From a virus, in IMG/VR virus record IMGVR_UViG_3300021960_000447, positions 1 to 25,943 of that record: 25,943 bases of DNA; one strand, given 5' to 3'. Below the pieces are notes generated by a model that saw only the letters and a program-made list of their open reading frames with translations, was not told the DNA's origin and made no database searches. Position numbers and translations under genes: made by a program. Each line of letters begins with the position of its first letter. Position 1 is the stretch's first letter. Shown here one piece after another: positions 1 through 11,780 of the stretch.

Positions 1-2679
1 CGGAGTGAAAGTAATCGTAAAAGAAAAGAAAAAGAAAGACAAAAAGCAGAGGAAAGAGAAAAGCAATTAGAAACAAGAAAACCAACTAAGGTTAGTGAAA
101 ATAACCTTGCAAAGATATCATTACCTGGCAGAAGTATTCTTGATACAATCAATAGATTTCTTGCATTTACTTTAATTGGATATCTGTTTAATAAGTACAA
201 TCAATTCCTACCTAAACTTGCAGAGTTTGCTAAACTTATAACTCCTGTTGCACAGTTTATTGAAGCATTTGGTAAAAATGTAATCAATAGAGTAATTGAT
301 TTTGTTGATGTTGGATATCAAACATATGATAAAGTCCGTGCAGAAATTAAAAACATTGGAGGTGAAGGAGCACAAAAAACATTTGATGACTTTTCTAAGA
401 ATTTAAATCTAATTCTAAATGGTGCAATTGGTGCTGCAATGTTGATTGCAAGCACTGCTCCAAAAACTCCAAGAGGTGCTGCTGGTGGTTTAGGATCAAG
501 TGCTTCAAAAACTTTAGGTAGCGCAATTCCAAAACCTACAAGTGGATTTGGTGCTGGAACTGCAATGACACCTGGTAGATATAGGTTACCTGGACAAGCT
601 AAAGCAAGTGGTTTTGCATTAGAGCAAGCAAGAAAAAAGGCAACTCAAACTTCTCTAAATCAAGCATCAAAACAGTTAGCATCTCAAGGTGCAAAACAAT
701 CTCTAAGATCATTGGTTGGTGTTCCTGTTATTGGTTCTCTAATTGGTTTTATTATTGATACTGTTGTTTTCAGAGAGAAACCGACAAGAGCTGCTGCAGG
801 TGCAGTTGGAAGTGCTATAGGACAAGGAATTGGAATTGCTCTTGCTGGAGGAACTACATTTGGACTTGGTGCTGGTGTTGGTATGTTTGTTGGTGGTTTT
901 GTTGGTGATATGTTAGGTAAAACAATATATGATGCACTTAATGGATATAAACCAGAACCAACACAAGCAAAGGCGCAAGGCGGACAAGTTTCTGATGGAC
1001 AATCAAGAGTTGCTACTTCAAGAAGAATTAAAACCACTCAGAGAAGAACACAAAGAACTTATACTCCACAAAAAACACAACCAGGAAAAGATATTGGTGG
1101 AAAGCAAAAGATTGAACAGTTGTATGGTAAGGATGAACCAGGACAAAGAAGTGCATTAAGAGCACTAAGAAAGAGTTCTGAAGATCTAAAAAAGATGAAG
1201 TCCTTGAATGGTGTTGCTGGTGCTATGTTTGGTGCTGGTATTGATATGTCACTGGGACAGAAACCAGACAAAAAACTTGCAACATCTCTTGGTAATACCT
1301 TTGGTTCTGTAATTCAAGCTGCTGTTGACGCTGAGTTGAATTCTTCATTCAATGATATCTCAAGAACAATTGCAATGGCAAATGGTGGCGTAGTTCCATC
1401 AAGAGAAATTAAAGGTGGTATGAGTATTGGTGAGAGGATTGGTAAATATATTTCCAGTGCATTTTCAATCGCATTAGAAAGTTCTGCTTCTAAAGTATTA
1501 CAGAACTTAAATCAAGAGTTTAATTTAGAAGGAGGAGCACCAGGCGCTGGACAAGGACCAGGAGGACCTGGTGATGGTGATGATAATGGTGGTGGAGGAG
1601 GTCAGTTTACAGGCTCTGCTGCAAACATACCTCCAGAAGGAAAAGCACTTTTAGATGCTATTGCTGGATCTGAATCTGGTGGATACAATTCAAGATATCC
1701 ATCTAAAACTTTTAATAATAATTGGGAGGATCATCCAAGAATTGATGAAATTATTTTAAGTGGCCCAAATAAAGGAAAAACAAGTAATGCTGCAGGAAGA
1801 TATCAATTTTTATCTACAACTTGGGATCAATATAAACCAGGAAAAGCATTTACTCCAGAAAATCAAGATATTGCTGCATACAGATTAGCCATTGCTGCAT
1901 ATGGTTATGGTGAATCTGGATTATTAAAGGATCTTAAAAGTGATCCTGCAAAAGTTGCAAGAAAATTAAGCGGAACTTGGACATCTTTACCCGGTGGTAT
2001 AGAACCAAACAATGCTACAACTGGATTTTTGTCTAGGTTTCAAGCAAGTGTAAAAAAATATAAAAGCACTGGTGGTCCTTTAAGTGCAAAAGGAGTTAAG
2101 AAATTTAGTAAATCTGATATAACAAGTTTCTTTAGACAACAAGAATCTTTTCGTGCTAAACCTCATGAAGGAATGGATATTGCTGCTCCTCAGGGAACAC
2201 CAATTTCTTTTGGTATGAGTGGAGAAGTTCTCGGTATTTGGAGAACTAATAGTGGATCAAGAAATGCAAATGGTGGTTATGGTACATATATGGATGTTAA
2301 ATTTTCTGACGGTAGAATTGCTAGAATAGCTCACCTAAGCAATGTTCCATCATCATTAGCAAAGGGAAGCAAATTTAGAGCAAATCAAATAATAGCTTAT
2401 TCTGGAGGTGAGGAAGGTGCTCCAGGTTCTGGAAGATCTGGAGGTCCACATATCCATTTGGAACAACTTTCCAAACCCATGGGTATTGAAGAAACAACTA
2501 AAGGTAAATCTGATCCATTAAAGGGAGGTTTATTTGATTTAATTCAACAAGGTGGAACTAGGGCATCATTAGCACCATCTCAACAAACAAGAGAGATTGC
2601 ATCATTACAACAAAGTCCATCATATGCATTAGTCGAAAATAATACCATCCTTTATCAAAAGGAATTTGTTCTTACTTAA
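1..2679 (+). CDS. Large tail protein with fused lambda-R-like muramidase and M23 peptidase domains (5' partial)
   Basis: The frame is open from base 1, so this is the 3' part (893 codons) of a longer gene; the ATG at 439 is internal. Counting from base 1, residues 1-35 are highly charged (Lys/Glu/Arg), followed by hydrophobic and Ala/Gly-rich helical stretches typical of tail-interior proteins. A Gly/Pro linker near residues 510-535 precedes a muramidase domain resembling phage lambda endolysin R (GH104): candidate catalytic Glu558 in GSESGG, then DHPR, AGRYQFL and the SLPGG tail. Residues 715-825 form an M23 metallopeptidase with zinc-ligand pattern H722-x3-D726, H778 and H817-I-H819. Such enzymes locally open peptidoglycan during injection. 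Position directly before hub-like genes suggests a tail hub or tape-measure-associated role (inference). Domain calls are strong; the virion role is less certain. Confidence 0.85.
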   Translation, partial: RSESNRKRKEKERQKAEEREKQLETRKPTKVSENNLAKISLPGRSILDTINRFLAFTLIGYLFNKYNQFLPKLAEFAKLITPVAQFIEAFGKNVINRVIDFVDVGYQTYDKVRAEIKNIGGEGAQKTFDDFSKNLNLILNGAIGAAMLIASTAPKTPRGAAGGLGSSASKTLGSAIPKPTSGFGAGTAMTPGRYRLPGQAKASGFALEQARKKATQTSLNQASKQLASQGAKQSLRSLVGVPVIGSLIGFIIDTVVFREKPTRAAAGAVGSAIGQGIGIALAGGTTFGLGAGVGMFVGGFVGDMLGKTIYDALNGYKPEPTQAKAQGGQVSDGQSRVATSRRIKTTQRRTQRTYTPQKTQPGKDIGGKQKIEQLYGKDEPGQRSALRALRKSSEDLKKMKSLNGVAGAMFGAGIDMSLGQKPDKKLATSLGNTFGSVIQAAVDAELNSSFNDISRTIAMANGGVVPSREIKGGMSIGERIGKYISSAFSIALESSASKVLQNLNQEFNLEGGAPGAGQGPGGPGDGDDNGGGGGQFTGSAANIPPEGKALLDAIAGSESGGYNSRYPSKTFNNNWEDHPRIDEIILSGPNKGKTSNAAGRYQFLSTTWDQYKPGKAFTPENQDIAAYRLAIAAYGYGESGLLKDLKSDPAKVARKLSGTWTSLPGGIEPNNATTGFLSRFQASVKKYKSTGGPLSAKGVKKFSKSDITSFFRQQESFRAKPHEGMDIAAPQGTPISFGMSGEVLGIWRTNSGSRNANGGYGTYMDVKFSDGRIARIAHLSNVPSSLAKGSKFRANQIIAYSGGEEGAPGSGRSGGPHIHLEQLSKPMGIEETTKGKSDPLKGGLFDLIQQGGTRASLAPSQQTREIASLQQSPSYALVENNTILYQKEFVLT

Positions 2680-2695: not shown

Positions 2696-4045
2696 ATGGG
2701 AAGCAAGGAGTCATTACAATTTAATAAGTTTGAAGTTTTTTCAAACAAAAATAAGAAATCAGTAGACATGAGATCTATTCCAAGAATAGAGTATCGTGAA
2801 AGTGTTTTGTCTCCTTTTGTAATCATAACAGCGCAGATTGTTGAAACAGGAAGCACAATGTCTGCAGATGATGGATCTGGTGCTACAGTATCTGCACTTG
2901 AGGGACTTAATCTTCAGGGAACTGAAAAGGTTTTATTTGAGATTGAAGATGAAAATGGAAACAAAATAAAACTTACCAATGATAATGATTTAAGAGTTGC
3001 AACTGTATCAAGAGTTGCTCAATCATTTAAAAATATCTCATATCAATTGAATATAGTTTCTAAAGAAGCATATGATAATACTCTTCTTGATACAAGAGTA
3101 AGAACTAAATTTGATGGTAAAATATCCAATAGTGTTCGTAGAATACTGACTCAATTTTTAAAAACTAAAAAAGATATTGAAGTTGATGAAACTATTAATA
3201 CTTATGAGAAGTGGGGTATAGATGACTATCCATTTGATAAAATATTAGAACTACAGCAGATTGGTATTCCAAATATTAAAGATGCTCTCGGAAAAACTTG
3301 TGGATATCTTTTCTGGGAAACTTCTGAAGGATATAAGTTTAAATCAATAGATAATCTTTTTAAAGTTACAGGGTCATTTTCTAACTATAAAGATAGTAAA
3401 GGAAGAAGAATTAAAAATTATATTGAGAATAAAAAAGTTGATCGCACAACTATTCCTCAAGGATTTGATGATAAAATACTTCACTCTAGAATTGATAGAA
3501 CAATAGATGCACTTGGTCAATTTGAATCGGGTGCATATGGAACTGTCCTTGAATTTTTTGATGAGGTTAATAAAACATATACTAAAAAGGATCCATTCGT
3601 TGCACCACCAGAAGGTAATGGTGAAATTGCAGGTAAAGAATTACCTCAATTTAATGAAGAATATAAAGATAAAGCAACTGTTAGAGTAGTTGCACAAAGA
3701 GATATTGGACAAACCTTTAGTTCTGGAGATTCTATAGAGAAACAAGTTGAGCAAAATACAAAAGAAGGTGTCTCTGTTCAAGATGTTTTACAGCAAGCTC
3801 AACAGAATTATAGACAGAAGTTTAATATGTCAGCAGAGATTATAATACCTGCTGATTTTAGCTTACATGCAGGCGATTTAATTTATTGCGAGTTCCCTGA
3901 ATTATCTACAAAAAGCACTCTTACAAAAACACCCAAGGATAGTGGTATATATATGATATCGGATCTATGCCACTATGGTGATAAGTCACAAACTTACACG
4001 GGACTGCGACTGGTAAGAGATTCTTTCGGAGTAAAGGTAACCTAA
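2696..4045 (+). CDS. Probable baseplate hub protein (gp27-like)
   Basis: This 449-residue protein has no signal peptide or membrane segment. The C-terminal third reads like the hub fold of contractile tails: a short helical stretch, then beta strands with LHAGDLIYCEFPEL and GIYMISDLCHYGD, followed by a TGLRLVRDSFG end. That pattern (a property that must be set above a minimum, then a measured result) is typical of gp27/gpD-family hub proteins, which form the trimeric adaptor between tail tube and spike. T4 gp27 is about 390 residues, so this version is somewhat longer. It starts 16 bases after the hydrolase gene and ends 1 base before the CP12-like gene. Assignment rests on C-terminal pattern and on the downstream gp5-like gene. 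Another hub or tail-tube initiator protein is the main alternative. Confidence 0.6.
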   Translation: MGSKESLQFNKFEVFSNKNKKSVDMRSIPRIEYRESVLSPFVIITAQIVETGSTMSADDGSGATVSALEGLNLQGTEKVLFEIEDENGNKIKLTNDNDLRVATVSRVAQSFKNISYQLNIVSKEAYDNTLLDTRVRTKFDGKISNSVRRILTQFLKTKKDIEVDETINTYEKWGIDDYPFDKILELQQIGIPNIKDALGKTCGYLFWETSEGYKFKSIDNLFKVTGSFSNYKDSKGRRIKNYIENKKVDRTTIPQGFDDKILHSRIDRTIDALGQFESGAYGTVLEFFDEVNKTYTKKDPFVAPPEGNGEIAGKELPQFNEEYKDKATVRVVAQRDIGQTFSSGDSIEKQVEQNTKEGVSVQDVLQQAQQNYRQKFNMSAEIIIPADFSLHAGDLIYCEFPELSTKSTLTKTPKDSGIYMISDLCHYGDKSQTYTGLRLVRDSFGVKVT

Positions 4046-4046
4046 C

Positions 4047-4262
4047 ATGGAAAGAAGTATTCAGCAACACATTAATGATGACAAGGACGAACTAGATAAT
4101 CCTAGTATCAATGCACAACGTCGTCGTCATATTGAAGATGAACTTGATGCATTAGAAAAGTATCAGGCAAATCATCCTGACGAAGATAGCGACCCCAATC
4201 CATTAGAACTGTATTGCGATTCACATCCTGACGCATCAGAATGCAAAATTTATGAGGACTAA
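4047..4262 (+). CDS. cp12: CP12-like small protein
   Basis: A 71-residue acidic protein whose C-terminus (LELYC, eight residues, C, then KIYED) matches the C-terminal hallmark of CP12, the disordered redox switch that binds GAPDH and phosphoribulokinase and shuts down the Calvin cycle in cyanobacteria and chloroplasts. Cys57 and Cys66 have the CP12 spacing. Residues 31-41 (DELDALEKYQA) align with the family's central AWDAVEELQAE-type helix. The N-terminal cysteine pair of many CP12s is missing, as there are no other cysteines. Length is close to the usual ~75 residues. It begins 1 base after the hub-like gene and ends 6 bases before the gp5-like gene, so it should be transcribed with baseplate genes. 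Cyanophages are known to carry cp12. A structural protein that only resembles CP12 cannot be excluded. Confidence 0.65.
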   Translation: MERSIQQHINDDKDELDNPSINAQRRRHIEDELDALEKYQANHPDEDSDPNPLELYCDSHPDASECKIYED

Positions 4263-4268
4263 TGATTA

Positions 4269-6524
4269 ATGTCAGAGTCATCTCAAAATAGAAATTTTAG
4301 AAAAGAACTAGAAAAGAGACTTGGTAAAACCATTATAGGTATAGGTCAAATTGATGCTGAAACTTTTGAAACTGCCCAACGTCAACAAGGAAAATTTACC
4401 GAACATAACGAACAAGCATCTGGAGTTCTTCTCAATAAGTATAAGGTTAGAATTTGTCATGCAACAAATGAAAGCGAGTCTGTTAATAATTTAATTGATG
4501 TTTATGGTCAAGCTTCTATATCTGGATTAAGAGCAGAAATTTGTCCTGTTCCAGTTTATCCAGTTAATACTTATGTTGTGGTTTATAAGGATCCACTAAC
4601 AGATCTTTATTATATTGATGAAGCACGTCCTAATAGTGTAGTTGATTTACCCACCAAAAAGAATACTCCTGGATGTGGACCTGCAAGTGGATTTGTTCCT
4701 GGTTCGGCAAGTTTTAAAGTACCACAAACTCATCAAGATCCTGGTGGTAAAGGTGTTGCAAAAGGTTCAGAAGTTCTTAGAAATTCAGTACCAAGTAAAG
4801 AAGATAAAAAACAAAGTACCCATAACGAAAGTATAACGATACCCAGTCCTTGTATTCCTGTCGATACTGCTGCTATTAATAAAGAACTTGAAGGACTTAT
4901 TAAGTTTGTTTCAGATTTAAGAACAGGAGTCCTTGGTGAAGATAGTTTTCTTACAACAAGTCAAGAATTTTTAAATGAAGTTCAATCAAAAGTAAGTTCG
5001 GTATCTCAAGTAATTTCTAATGCAATTTCTTGGTTAATTCAAGAAATTAGAAAAAAGGTGATGAGAAAAATTAACGGTGCAGTTAATGATACAATAGGTA
5101 ATGTTTATTTAAGCGCAAGATACTCTATATTAGAAGCTAAAGATAATGCTTTAGATTTAACATCATGTTTATTTTTAAAAATTTTAAGTAATCTTGCAAA
5201 TTTTGTAGGTGATTTTCTTAATTCATTTATTGATACTGTACTAAACACCGGGTTATGTGTGATTGAATCATTTTTATCATCTTTAATCGGTGCAATATTG
5301 CCTTCTATTTTAAGTGCAGTAAATGCTATCTTAGGGCCTCTTTCTAGTTTAATCGGATCTGCGATTAATCTTACAAATGATATTCTTACTTTCTTGGAAG
5401 GTATCATTGATTTCTTATCTTGCGATATAAAACAAATTTGTCCTGTTACAAATGAATGGAACTTCTTAGAAGGAGGAGTTGATTCTTCTGAATTTGCAAC
5501 TCTTGATTTTAATGCAATATTTGAAAGTGCAAAATCATTTGCTGATAATATTATTGCACTTGGAGATGTTCCTGGTGATGTTGTTGATAGTTTATCTGGT
5601 ATCAATGCTGAACAAGCAATTAATAATGCTGTTGATGCTGCAGCAAGTTGTTTGGGATTATTTCAATGTGGTCCACCAACAGTTTCTTTCTGGAATCTTG
5701 GTTCTGGAGGTGGAACAGTTGCCAATGCTGTTGTCAGCACTGCTGGAGAAATACTTGGGGTTAATATTATTACACCCGGAAAAGGATATTCTAATCCACC
5801 AAATGTAGCATTTAATGACTCTTGTGGATCAGGAACTGGTGCATATGGAACTGCAGTTATTGGTGAGTATGAATATACTGATCCAGAAACAGGTAACACT
5901 TCAACGGAAACTGGAGTTCTTAGTGTGATCATAAACAATCCAGGTTATGGTTACCTTCCTGCTCCAGATGGAAGTGTTGGTGGTATGGGTAGAACTATTG
6001 CTGGTCGTTGTCAAAGTTTGATTCAGAAAGGATCTACTAAAAAATGGCAAGGTCCTTTTGAACCAGGTACAGTTCTTAATATTGAGATTGGGGATACTGT
6101 AAGACTTGCTGGTATTCCTGAGTATATTTCGGAAGAAAATACTTCTATAACAACACCACCATGTCCAGACACAGTAAGACCAACATCACCATCTTCAGTT
6201 TATCCTGTTGTTATTTCTATTGGTGATGTTGTTATTCGAGATCCTGGATTTGGATTTGTTCCAGGGGACACAATTACAGTAACACCTGATAATGGTGCAG
6301 ACATAACTCCTATTATTACTGATGGATCAATAACCGGAATTAAAATCAATAATCCTGGAATTGGATTTACCGATATGCCAGTACTAACTCTAAATACCAA
6401 TACGGGTTATAATGCTACTTTATTACCTGTTCTCTCATTTAAGAGAGTTAATGAAGACAATGCATTTGAAGTTCCGACAGGAACTGGTATTGTTCAGGTT
6501 ATTGATTGTGTAGGTAAAAACTGA
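4269..6524 (+). CDS. Probable baseplate hub/central spike protein with OB-fold (gp5-like, no lysozyme)
   Basis: A 751-residue protein. Residues about 55-120 form a compact beta segment (KYKVRICHA ... VYPVNTYVVVYKDP ... YYIDEA) consistent with the OB-fold of gp5/VgrG-type spike proteins. Residues about 205-390 are long amphipathic and hydrophobic helices rich in Ser/Leu/Ile, and residues about 460-751 contain repeated beta units with a PG-x-G-Y/F motif (TPGKGYSNPP, NPGYGYLP, DPGFGFVPG, NPGIGFTD). T4 gp5 carries a lysozyme between OB-fold and spike; nothing lysozyme-like is visible here, and muramidase activity sits in the protein encoded at the start of the window instead. The stop overlaps the next start (TGATG), indicating translational coupling. 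The helical middle could be a scaffold-like or membrane-active segment; I cannot assign it. Confidence 0.55.
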   Translation: MSESSQNRNFRKELEKRLGKTIIGIGQIDAETFETAQRQQGKFTEHNEQASGVLLNKYKVRICHATNESESVNNLIDVYGQASISGLRAEICPVPVYPVNTYVVVYKDPLTDLYYIDEARPNSVVDLPTKKNTPGCGPASGFVPGSASFKVPQTHQDPGGKGVAKGSEVLRNSVPSKEDKKQSTHNESITIPSPCIPVDTAAINKELEGLIKFVSDLRTGVLGEDSFLTTSQEFLNEVQSKVSSVSQVISNAISWLIQEIRKKVMRKINGAVNDTIGNVYLSARYSILEAKDNALDLTSCLFLKILSNLANFVGDFLNSFIDTVLNTGLCVIESFLSSLIGAILPSILSAVNAILGPLSSLIGSAINLTNDILTFLEGIIDFLSCDIKQICPVTNEWNFLEGGVDSSEFATLDFNAIFESAKSFADNIIALGDVPGDVVDSLSGINAEQAINNAVDAAASCLGLFQCGPPTVSFWNLGSGGGTVANAVVSTAGEILGVNIITPGKGYSNPPNVAFNDSCGSGTGAYGTAVIGEYEYTDPETGNTSTETGVLSVIINNPGYGYLPAPDGSVGGMGRTIAGRCQSLIQKGSTKKWQGPFEPGTVLNIEIGDTVRLAGIPEYISEENTSITTPPCPDTVRPTSPSSVYPVVISIGDVVIRDPGFGFVPGDTITVTPDNGADITPIITDGSITGIKINNPGIGFTDMPVLTLNTNTGYNATLLPVLSFKRVNEDNAFEVPTGTGIVQVIDCVGKN

Positions 6525-7142: not shown

Positions 7143-8093
7143 ATGGAAGTCACAGATTTACATGTAGGAAAACAATTACAAGTTGTTTCTAATCTTCCTG
7201 GAGGAATACCAGGACCTCCTAATGTTGCTCATGGTGCAGGTGCAGCAGCAATTCCTGGTGCTGTTTGGGCAGATGGAGGACTTCATGTTGGAGCACCACT
7301 TTTTGCACCTGGAGAAACGGAAGTTGGTTTTTGTAGACCACCAGCAACGAATACGTTAGCATTTGCAAATTCCCTCAAATCAATCTTTGCAATTTCGGGA
7401 AGAGGTGGAAGTAATGGTGTTACTGATGTTATTATTGGAGATCCAATTGGACCTGTTGGTATTAGCGTAAATGCTACAATTATCAATATCATATCACCAC
7501 TCACTAATGGTGTTGGTGCTCTTAACTGGACTGGAACAAAATCTTTTACTGGTGTAAAGCAGCAAACTGGATTAGAAGTTCGTTCTGGTGCTGTTGCTGA
7601 TGTTGGTAAAGAATCTACGATTGGTAATGTTGTAGAAAGTGGTGCAAGGGTTATTAATGGGTCTTTAAATGTCACTAAGTCAATTACTACTGGATCCATA
7701 ACAGCAAATTTTGGTGCATTTACAAAAGTTGCTGCACCATTCAAACAATTTGATATTCCACATCCAACAAAACCAAATCATAGATTGGTTCATACTTGTT
7801 TAGAGGGTCCAGAAATTGGAGTTTATTACAGAGGTAGATTAATTAATAATAATGTGATAGAATTACCCGAATATTGGCGTGGTCTTGTAGATCCAGAAAC
7901 TATCACAGTAAATCTAACACCACATGAATCCTATCAAGAACTATTTGTGAAAACAATTGAGTGGGGAACTAAGATTTTTGTTGTAAATAATTCAAGCGGA
8001 CCTATCAATTGCAGCTATACAGTTTATGCAAAACGATGCGATGTTGAAGATTTGGTCGTTGAATATGAAGGCACCGAAATGAGAGAGAGATAA
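7143..8093 (+). CDS. Structural protein with C-terminal fibre-type beta domain
   Basis: A 316-residue protein starting 1 base after the preceding stop. The N-terminal ~75 residues are Gly/Pro/Ala-rich (PGAVWADGGLHVGAPLF), and residues 80-200 are repetitive, short beta strands typical of trimeric phage fibres. Residues about 202-305 form a distinct domain beginning FDIPHPTKPNHRLVHTCLEG and continuing with YRGRL, ELPEYWRGLV, VNLTPH and a Cys/Arg-rich end. The pattern (HP...LVH, E-x-P, Y-x-G, LP-x-Y, LTP) resembles a C-terminal domain I associate with bacterial and phage fibre or surface proteins, function unknown. The same domain recurs alone in the gene at 9589. Most likely a baseplate or short-fibre component. 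Confidence 0.6.
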   Translation: MEVTDLHVGKQLQVVSNLPGGIPGPPNVAHGAGAAAIPGAVWADGGLHVGAPLFAPGETEVGFCRPPATNTLAFANSLKSIFAISGRGGSNGVTDVIIGDPIGPVGISVNATIINIISPLTNGVGALNWTGTKSFTGVKQQTGLEVRSGAVADVGKESTIGNVVESGARVINGSLNVTKSITTGSITANFGAFTKVAAPFKQFDIPHPTKPNHRLVHTCLEGPEIGVYYRGRLINNNVIELPEYWRGLVDPETITVNLTPHESYQELFVKTIEWGTKIFVVNNSSGPINCSYTVYAKRCDVEDLVVEYEGTEMRER

Positions 8094-8095
8094 AA

Positions 8096-9592
8096 ATGGG
8101 AATTGCATCAGATATTATTTCAGAATTAAGTCAAAAGAAACAACAGGCATATGAAGGTGTTGAGTTTCTTCAAAAGAACATTCTTGTTAAGGATGTTAAT
8201 AAAGAAAAGTATGATGCTGCAATCGTAAGTATTGATGCAGATTTATTTGTAGAAGTTAATAATGTTAATGATAAACTTCAAGATGTAAAAGATGCATACC
8301 AAGCACGGGTAGATGTTGGTTGCAGAACAGATATGTTCTGGAGATTGGTGAGTATCAGCACGTATACTGAAAATCCAGATGGAACTGGACCGGTTACAAA
8401 CCTTTATAATTTAGAGGTGACAAGGTTATCACTTTCTGGTTATCAAGGTGTTGGACTTGGAACAACTGCAAGTGGACCAGGAACAGTTGGTTATGGTACA
8501 ACAGGTGGCGCTACTTATTTTACAGAAGATGGACAAACCATTAATTATCCTCCTAGAAGTATTTTTGGATTTGAAGAGAAAAATCTTTATGGTCTCAAGT
8601 ATTATGATGAACCATCGCAAAGAGATATTGGCGATACCTTCGTAACAAGTTTTATTGGAACAATCAGTATTGGTTCCAATGTTCTTACAGTGATGTCTCC
8701 AATTGGGTCTGGGACAACTTTAGGAATTACTACAGGTCAATTAATTACTGCAAATAAAACGGGCATCTTCCCAACATCTTCGGGAGAAATTGTTGCAATT
8801 GGAACCGCACTTGCAGATTTAAATGTTCTATCGGGTGTTGGAAATACTATTGGTATTGGAACAACAACACAATTGGTAAGCACACTTACATTAGATTCTG
8901 TTGTATCAGTAGGTGCATCAGCTCCAGAGCAAGATGGTTCTTATGTAACATTTACCGTGTTCCAAAGTCCAGCTGGTATTGGAACAACTGCTATTAGTTA
9001 CTTTAGAATACCATTTACTTCCAATCCATTCAGTCCACAGTCATTGGGAATTATGAATAGTTCTCAGTATGGAATTGGTAAATCAGTTTTCTATGATAAC
9101 TCTGGATACAGTTCTAACTTACAAACTTGGAGACCAGAGTTTGAAAGTCCAGAAATTAGTGATGACTTCCCTGCTGTAACAGAACCAGAAGTTGGTGCTG
9201 GTAAAATCTATTATACTGTTGGATTCTCAAGTTATCCTGCAGTTCCATTTGGTAGTGGAAGAGCACCTGAAGGAACTACAGTTGCATTAACTGCAGCACA
9301 GGTTGCATTAGTTACTCTTTATGAAAACCCATCTGCTTGCTCAACCCAAGAAACTAATTTGACAAACGCTATTTCAGATGCAAATACTGCAGAAGCAAAT
9401 ATCCAATCTGATCTTGGTGATTTTAACTATAAGATATCAGCAGTTAATGCAATGCGTGACTTAAGAACTGATATACAATTAGAAATCTGGGGTAATCGTC
9501 AAGCAATTGGTGGTCTTGCTGATGATATAGATAAGTATGATACTGCGATTGAGTATCTTGGCGTTACAACTATCACATCCTTATTACCATGA
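8096..9592 (+). CDS. Virion structural protein of unknown role
   Basis: A 498-residue protein starting 2 bases after the previous stop and overlapping the next gene by 4 bases (ATGA). Residues 1-70 and about 410-490 are helical, coiled-coil-like and rich in Asn/Asp/Gln (for example ETNLTNAISDANTAEANIQ). The middle is beta-rich with repeated Gly-Ile/Val-Gly-Thr units (GVGLGTTASGPGT, TIGIGTTTQ, AGIGTTAIS) that also occur in the fibre genes farther downstream. This helix-beta-helix layout suggests a trimeric tail or baseplate component whose ends form coiled coils. It lies wholly inside the tail gene run. I recognise the style from T4-like cyanophages but not a named family. Confidence 0.6.
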   Translation: MGIASDIISELSQKKQQAYEGVEFLQKNILVKDVNKEKYDAAIVSIDADLFVEVNNVNDKLQDVKDAYQARVDVGCRTDMFWRLVSISTYTENPDGTGPVTNLYNLEVTRLSLSGYQGVGLGTTASGPGTVGYGTTGGATYFTEDGQTINYPPRSIFGFEEKNLYGLKYYDEPSQRDIGDTFVTSFIGTISIGSNVLTVMSPIGSGTTLGITTGQLITANKTGIFPTSSGEIVAIGTALADLNVLSGVGNTIGIGTTTQLVSTLTLDSVVSVGASAPEQDGSYVTFTVFQSPAGIGTTAISYFRIPFTSNPFSPQSLGIMNSSQYGIGKSVFYDNSGYSSNLQTWRPEFESPEISDDFPAVTEPEVGAGKIYYTVGFSSYPAVPFGSGRAPEGTTVALTAAQVALVTLYENPSACSTQETNLTNAISDANTAEANIQSDLGDFNYKISAVNAMRDLRTDIQLEIWGNRQAIGGLADDIDKYDTAIEYLGVTTITSLLP

Positions 9593-9927
9593 TTACAATT
9601 AGTCATCCTTCAGTTAAAGATTATAACTTAAATCTTGAAGGTTTACTTGGACCCGAAAATGCTGTATTCTTTAGAGGTAGAGTTACAAGTAAAAATGAAA
9701 TCAATCTTCCAAGTTACTGGGAAGCATTAGTAGAACAAACAACAATCTCAGTTCATTTAACTCCAATTGGTGCTCATCAGAATGTAATTGTAAAACGTAT
9801 TGGTGAGAATAAAGTATTTCTTCAACCACAAGGAGGAATGCCAATTGATTGTTACTATTTGATTATTGGTGAGCGCAAGGATGTGCCACGTCTCAAAGCG
9901 GAACAAAGAGTTGGCACAGAGGACTGA
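9589..9927 (+). CDS. Stand-alone fibre-type beta domain protein
   Basis: A 112-residue protein that is essentially one copy of the domain at the C-terminus of the gene at 7143: HP near the start, LEGLLGPENAVFFRGRV, LPSYWEALV, ISVHLTPIG, VKRIG and a final IGERKD. Shared features are GPE, a YRG/FRG turn, LP-x-YW, LTP and the closing strand. Its start overlaps the preceding stop (ATGA), so it is probably translationally coupled. The two domain copies may assemble on the same structure. It is the last gene before the promoter at 9911, which lies inside its final codons, so it ends the first late block. Confidence 0.65.
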   Translation: MITISHPSVKDYNLNLEGLLGPENAVFFRGRVTSKNEINLPSYWEALVEQTTISVHLTPIGAHQNVIVKRIGENKVFLQPQGGMPIDCYYLIIGERKDVPRLKAEQRVGTED

Positions 9928-10351: not shown

Positions 10352-10358
10352 GTTTTTT

Positions 10359-10431
10359 GGGCGTGTAGTCCAGCGGCAGAGACAGGGAGCTTAAAACTCC
10401 TCCAGGGTCGGTTCGAATCCGACCACGCCTA
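10359..10431 (+). tRNA. tRNA-Leu(UAA) with short variable loop
   Basis: A full cloverleaf can be folded: 7-bp acceptor stem (10359-10365 with 10424-10430, one G-U closing pair), a D arm with a GG-containing loop, 5-bp anticodon stem GGAGx/xCTCC around the loop CTTAAAA (anticodon TAA at 10392-10394), a 5-base variable loop (10402-10406), and a T arm with loop TTCGAAT and stem GTCGG/CCGAC. The discriminator is A10431. The anticodon reads Leu UUA codons, which are common in the neighbouring genes. Leucine tRNAs normally have a long variable arm, so the short loop is odd. CCA is not encoded. Confidence 0.85.
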
Positions 10432-10455
10432 TTAGAAGTTTTTATTAACTTCTAA
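10432..10455 (+). repeat. Perfect 9-bp inverted repeat 3' of tRNA-Leu
   Basis: TTAGAAGTT (10432-10440) and AACTTCTAA (10447-10455) are exact inverted copies around TTTATT. In RNA this is a 9-bp, A/U-rich hairpin directly after the tRNA discriminator base. It has no U-run, so it is a poor intrinsic terminator. A tRNA 3'-processing or RNA-stability element, or an operator over the adjoining late-promoter-like motif, are possible. Confidence 0.55.
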
Positions 10456-10751: not shown

Positions 10752-10822
10752 GCCTCTAAAGCATTGTGGTGATGCACCGCTCTTGTAAAGCGGAGACGAC
10801 AGTTCAATTCTGTCTAGGGGCT
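10752..10822 (+). tRNA. tRNA-Thr(UGU)
   Basis: A complete cloverleaf folds: acceptor GCCTCTA/TAGGGGC (10752-10758 with 10815-10821, one G-U pair), D stem GCAT/ATGC around TGTGGTG, anticodon stem CCGCT/AGCGG around CTTGTAA (anticodon TGT at 10784-10786), a 4-base variable loop, and T stem GACAG/CTGTC with loop TTCAATT. Discriminator U10822. It reads ACA threonine codons, which are frequent in the structural genes. CCA is not encoded. Confidence 0.9.
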
Positions 10823-10843
10823 CTTGAGTTCTATAAAACTCCA

Positions 10844-11168: not shown

Positions 11169-11780
11169 GTGAAATCTGACTATTATATTGAAAAAATCAG
11201 TAAAAAGGAAGCAGAGGAACTTTTACTGAAATATCATTATCTTAAAGATATATCAAAAACTTTTAAAAGTGGATATAACTACGGATTATTTAAAAAAAAT
11301 GATTTTTCACCATTAAAGATTGGTGGTTTATTGGGAGTTTGTATTTTTACTGGACTCCCTGTTCCAGAAATAGCAAAAGGAGCATTTGAACTTGAAAGAC
11401 ACGAACAACAAGGACTCTTTGAACTCTCCCGATTATGCATCAGACCTGATACGCAATCTGATGAATATAACATCACTTCTTGGTTTGTGTCAAAAGCGAT
11501 TAGACAATTTCGGAGAGATACTGAAGTTAAAGCAATCCTTTCTTATGCTGATTCAGATCACCATTCTGGTACAATTTATCGCGCTTGCAACTTTAAGTAC
11601 TACGGTCTCACGGATCGAAAAAAAGATTTCTATTATTCAGACGGAACTAAACACTCTCGTGGAAAAATAAATGGTGCTGAGGGTGAATGGAGAAATAGAA
11701 CAAGAAAGCATAGATACTTGATGGTATTTGATAAAAACCTTAAGGTCTTGTGGAAAGAAGAAAAATATGGTATAATATAA
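11169..11780 (+). CDS. Mom-like DNA adenine-modification protein (GNAT-type fold)
   Basis: A 203-residue protein starting with GTG, 3 bases after the previous stop. Residues 84-93 (FELSRLCIRP) and 121-146 (KAILSYADSD, HHSGTIYRACNF, KYYG) match the pattern of phage Mu Mom and relatives: a substrate strand with L-x-RL-x-I, an SYAD turn, then GTIY-x-A-x-NF. Mom proteins have an acetyltransferase-like fold and modify adenine in phage DNA, protecting it from host restriction enzymes. The N-terminal EELLLKYHYLKD also fits the family's YHYL segment. It ends the small-gene block, and its last codons contain a promoter -10 box. A different GNAT acyltransferase acting on another substrate is the alternative. 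Confidence 0.65.
   Translation: MKSDYYIEKISKKEAEELLLKYHYLKDISKTFKSGYNYGLFKKNDFSPLKIGGLLGVCIFTGLPVPEIAKGAFELERHEQQGLFELSRLCIRPDTQSDEYNITSWFVSKAIRQFRRDTEVKAILSYADSDHHSGTIYRACNFKYYGLTDRKKDFYYSDGTKHSRGKINGAEGEWRNRTRKHRYLMVFDKNLKVLWKEEKYGII
11748..11776 (+). promoter_or_regulatory. Sigma-70-type promoter at end of Mom-like gene
   Basis: TTGTGG at 11748-11753, a 17-base spacer and a perfect TATAAT at 11771-11776. It overlaps the last ten codons of the Mom-like gene and points at a ~60-base interval that ends in a strong terminator, with no gene between. Expected transcription start near 11783. Confidence 0.5.

Follow-up and report, generated by a model that had tools for sequence, protein, structure and literature searches.

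The window analysed here, a complete IMG/VR virus record of 25,943 bases, carries at 4047..4262 (+) an open reading frame for a 71-aa CP12-domain protein (cp12), assigned by matches to PF02672, phrog_627 and CP12 chains in the PDB. The frame begins with ATG, has AGGTAACCTAAC directly upstream of this codon, and is separated by 1 base (4046) from the gene before it and by 6 bases (4263-4268) from the gene after it. The upstream gene (2696..4045, +) encodes a 449-aa cyanophage tail/baseplate protein that matches phrog_350 (E 7.5e-58) and is a T4-GC15 homologue. The downstream gene (4269..6524, +) encodes a 751-aa gp5-like baseplate hub / tail lysozyme family protein, which matches phrog_1922 (E 3.2e-44), a family labelled 'baseplate hub subunit and tail lysozyme'. 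A sequence-only reading had placed the small gene between a hub gene and a gp5-like gene, with gaps of 1 and 6 bases; position, gaps and the gp5-like assignment all hold, and the upstream 'hub' is refined here to a phrog_350 tail protein.

Other features were recorded in the same window. At 439-2679 (+) lies the gene for a 746-aa protein that is probably virion-associated; residues 387-557 resemble an endolysin (phrog_90), and residues 575-675 form an M23 peptidase domain. The proteins encoded at 7143-8093 and 9589-9927 (both +) carry a similar motif, CLEGPEIGVYYRGRL..NVIELPEYW in the former and LEGLLGPENAVFFRGRV..NEINLPSYW in the latter, and this resemblance suggests that a tail or fibre module was duplicated. 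Two tRNA genes follow the gp5 region, tRNA-Leu(TAA) (10358-10432, +) and tRNA-Thr(TGT) (10752-10823, +), in keeping with the tRNA hot-spot already published for the neighbourhood of gp5. Between small genes and a large fibre gene, a 203-aa protein encoded at 11169-11780 (+) matches Pfam Mom (PF25680, E 9.6e-26), a DNA-modification family.

Family assignment and cysteine content

The CP12 match of the 4047-4262 product is far above chance. PF02672 (CP12) is matched with E 3.4e-12 and 47.4 bits, about twice the family cut-off of 22.7 bits, over profile positions 3-70 of 70; the match takes in the whole protein and bears out the CP12 identity that had been claimed. The same model is matched by all 20 sequences in an alignment of CP12s from phages and hosts. 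The window protein also matches phrog_627 (E 2.5e-24), and its homologues occur in 363 phage records, all from cyanophages or marine viruses, among which 'CP12 carbon metabolic regulator' is a frequent annotation. In profile comparisons with solved structures every significant match was a CP12, present as a C-terminal peptide or as the full-length protein in complexes with cyanobacterial GAPDH. An NCBIfam scan returned no model for the window CP12, nor for a host CP12 or the S-RSM4 CP12. The AlphaFold2 model (mean pLDDT 90) has helices at residues 5-16, 23-42 and 52-59. Its matches in the PDB were weak: the top Foldseek hit, CP12 chain 6kez_O, was not significant (E 0.52), and Foldseek/VIA-align placed 6ghr, 6ghl and 6kez at Z about 2. 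In a tree of 135 CP12s, which has too few columns for dating transfer, phages and hosts lie mostly apart; P-SSM4 and MED4-213 fall on the side of the hosts. There is nothing unusual about the window gene, a copy of the familiar cyanophage cp12.

Both features on which the original identification drew, the central helix (IEDELDALEKYQA) and the C-terminal signature, are present in the 71-aa product, whose only two cysteines, Cys57 and Cys66, lie eight residues apart and are followed by KIYED. The N-terminal Cys pair is absent from the sequence, as is the AWD_VEE motif, at whose place stands IEDELDAL. The absence of the pair had been noted correctly, but it had also been taken for a surprising loss, and this part does not stand. 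Each of 65 distinct CP12s found at 80 loci in bacterial and archaeal genomes has only the C-terminal pair; nearly all come from marine Synechococcus and Prochlorococcus, named hosts such as Synechococcus WH7803 included, and the scan was built on the window protein family's own alignment, which biases it towards the C-pair-only form. A review describes marine picoplanktonic cyanobacteria as an exception without classical CP12, and cyanophage proteins as similar to the CP12 C-terminal region (PMC3906501). A CP12 with the C-terminal pair only is the normal state in marine Synechococcus and Prochlorococcus. The N-terminal pair was not lost by the window phage, since the CP12s of marine hosts are without it too, and from the genome survey and the review together it follows that the phage retains the form of its hosts.

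CP12 genes of the phage/picocyanobacterial type were also seen on contigs filed as Nonlabens xiamenensis, a flavobacterium (L092), and as Euryarchaeota MAGs (L093, L135, L164); the likely explanation is contamination by, or misbinning of, cyanophage or cyanobacterial DNA.

A metabolic gene among tail genes

The location of cp12 among tail genes had been presented as surprising. A place at gp5 is common in T4-like cyanophages and already published: talC and cp12 lie in the neighbourhood of either psbA or gp5, frequently next to tRNAs (Sullivan et al. 2010, PMC3037559). The phrog_350 protein adjoins cp12 in S-SZBM1, syn9 and S-WAM1 too, and the tail gene-cp12-gp5 order of the window recurs in SynMITS9220M01, S-RSM4 and DSL-LC03. 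CpeT, 2OG-Fe(II) oxygenase, tRNA or small genes lie between cp12 and gp5 in S-WAM1, syn9, S-SZBM1, P-SSM4, S-MS29 and P-RSM4. Of 80 related IMG/VR contigs, 79 have the end of a phrog_350 tail-gene homologue immediately before cp12, and the remaining one breaks off 89 bases upstream of cp12; the sample was drawn with the window protein and is thereby biased towards the tail gene-cp12 arrangement. Outside the tail region, cp12 is found among talC/petE/gnd/zwf in S-TIM5, beside transaldolase near psbA in MED4-213, and among small hypothetical genes in S-SRM01. P-HM2 has the tail gene and gp5, and its gp5 region contains no annotated cp12.

The position between two tail genes, with the same tail gene alongside in nearly all of these contigs, speaks for the recruitment of a CP12 fold to a new task in the baseplate or virion, an idea raised in the sequence-only reading and one to which we give very little credence. 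The residues of the GAPDH tail are conserved as in hosts, cp12 lies elsewhere in other phages, beside talC/gnd/zwf or psbA, and in P-HM2 no cp12 separates the tail gene from gp5. Published virion proteomics of S-SZBM1 also bears on the question. In that phage CP12 is SSZBM1_64 and the tail protein directly upstream, a phrog_350 member, is SSZBM1_65. SSZBM1_65 and an 87-aa protein were detected in purified virions, whereas SSZBM1_64 appears nowhere in the main text, virion table included (PMC9146016), small proteins being easily missed. With the neighbour listed and CP12 absent, a virion role is therefore disfavoured. The most plausible view is that the tail region tolerates insertion at this site, and that the location does not point to a virion function.

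Proposed action on GAPDH and its timing

We are highly confident that the window gene is a phage cp12, a picocyanobacterial-derived auxiliary metabolic gene that a T4-like cyanophage carries in its gp5 region, its product having a C-terminal tail predicted to inhibit host GAPDH. In the proposed mechanism this tail, from about residue 51 to residue 71 and with a disulfide joining Cys57 and Cys66, would fold onto the photosynthetic GAPDH of the host; the enzyme with CP12 bound would be blocked, and NADPH and carbon would be diverted from the Calvin cycle into the pentose phosphate pathway and into nucleotides for the phage. The usual view of phage CP12 is that it shuts down carbon fixation in marine cyanobacteria during infection. 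We infer that the window CP12 would bind and inhibit GAPDH from its alignments. Residues 51-71 align with a CP12 peptide crystallised on cyanobacterial GAPDH (3zdf, 6gfo; profile E about 7e-7), and the conserved phage/host tail, with D49, P50, E54, C57, E65, C66 and Y69 invariant across the aligned phage and host rows, is the part that aligns with GAPDH-bound CP12 peptides. These observations are consistent with the earlier proposal that the C-terminal half that binds GAPDH has been kept. The missing AWD_VEE motif counts against the proposed mechanism.

The N-terminal half (IQQHINDD, QRRRHIEDELDALEKYQ) is well conserved too, as might be said in favour of a regulator that acts on PRK only or outside the Calvin cycle and whose cysteine tail is a relic. 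The tail, however, is invariant in 19 diverse phage rows and in hosts, with the Cys pair unchanged in all 20 aligned rows, and cp12 is under purifying selection (dN 0.09-0.15 against six relatives, with synonymous changes near saturation). We therefore consider a relic tail highly improbable.

Functional context for inhibition of GAPDH comes from relatives (PMC5082946, PMC10665884). The NADPH/NADP+ ratio goes up during infection by such phages, and in P-HM2 cp12 belongs to the middle cluster and reaches high expression in light infection (PMC5082946). S-RSM4, which has the gene order of the window and carries cp12 and pentose-phosphate genes, halts CO2 fixation earlier than S-PM2, which has neither, a contrast that is confounded by other carbon genes (PMC10452541, PMC10665884).

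One variant of this best explanation keeps the target and alters the timing, late expression having been raised in the sequence-only reading. CP12 would be made from the transcript of the structural genes, its translation coupled to that of the tail gene, and GAPDH would be hit late rather than in the middle period. The 1-base gap to the tail gene in the window favours late synthesis; among 83 loci, cp12 overlaps the tail gene by 4 bases in 19 and follows it after 1 base in 20, arrangements compatible with co-transcription. The near absence of T4-type late and sigma-70 -10 consensus motifs (TATAAATA/TATAAT, scanned over 150 bases upstream; 1 and 3 of the 83 loci) points the same way, but the scan is uninformative on cyanophage middle promoters, which fall outside the coverage of a simple motif search, and a promoter may sit within the upstream gene. 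The published middle timing comes from P-HM2, whose gp5 region is without annotated cp12, and is therefore not automatically transferable. On the other side, S-RSM4, with cp12 at gp5, arrests CO2 fixation early, which suggests early or middle action. We regard late action on GAPDH as possible but unlikely, and hold it equally doubtful that cp12 of the window lineage lacks its own promoter and is made late, coupled to the upstream baseplate gene, in distinction to the middle-expressed P-HM2 gene. If this were true, inhibition of the Calvin cycle would be timed with virion assembly and not with DNA replication.

As a discovery the locus carries little weight, being a further example of a recognised auxiliary metabolic gene, and it shows that finding a metabolic gene in a block of tail genes does not by itself imply a new role. 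What is sharpened is a modest, testable question, not evidence of a new system: is cp12 expressed at a different time when it lies at gp5 than when it lies by psbA/talC?

Relation to known CP12s

Cyanophage cp12 genes (T4-GC337; phrog_627), for example S-RSM4 SRSM4_226, that of DSL-LC03, SynMITS9220M01 ORF 14 and syn9 gp17, lie, like the window gene, between the phrog_350/T4-GC15 tail gene and gp5. Their products are of nearly equal length to the window CP12, have the C-terminal Cys pair and lack the N-terminal pair; identity between the window protein and other cyanophage CP12s is about 55-69%. The CP12 of marine picocyanobacteria (Synechococcus WH7803, Prochlorococcus) likewise has the C-terminal pair only, can be aligned with the window CP12 over its full length, and has the tail DP..LE.[YF]C....[DE].[DEP]EC..YDD in common with it. 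It differs in being a host gene and in its identity of ~41-45%, and the first loop shows a two-residue insertion. In plants and other cyanobacteria, classical CP12 (6gfo, 3b1j, 6kez) has a disulfide-bearing C-terminal segment for GAPDH binding, a feature predicted for the window protein too, but it also has the N-terminal Cys pair and the AWD_VEE motif, and the window CP12 is without either.
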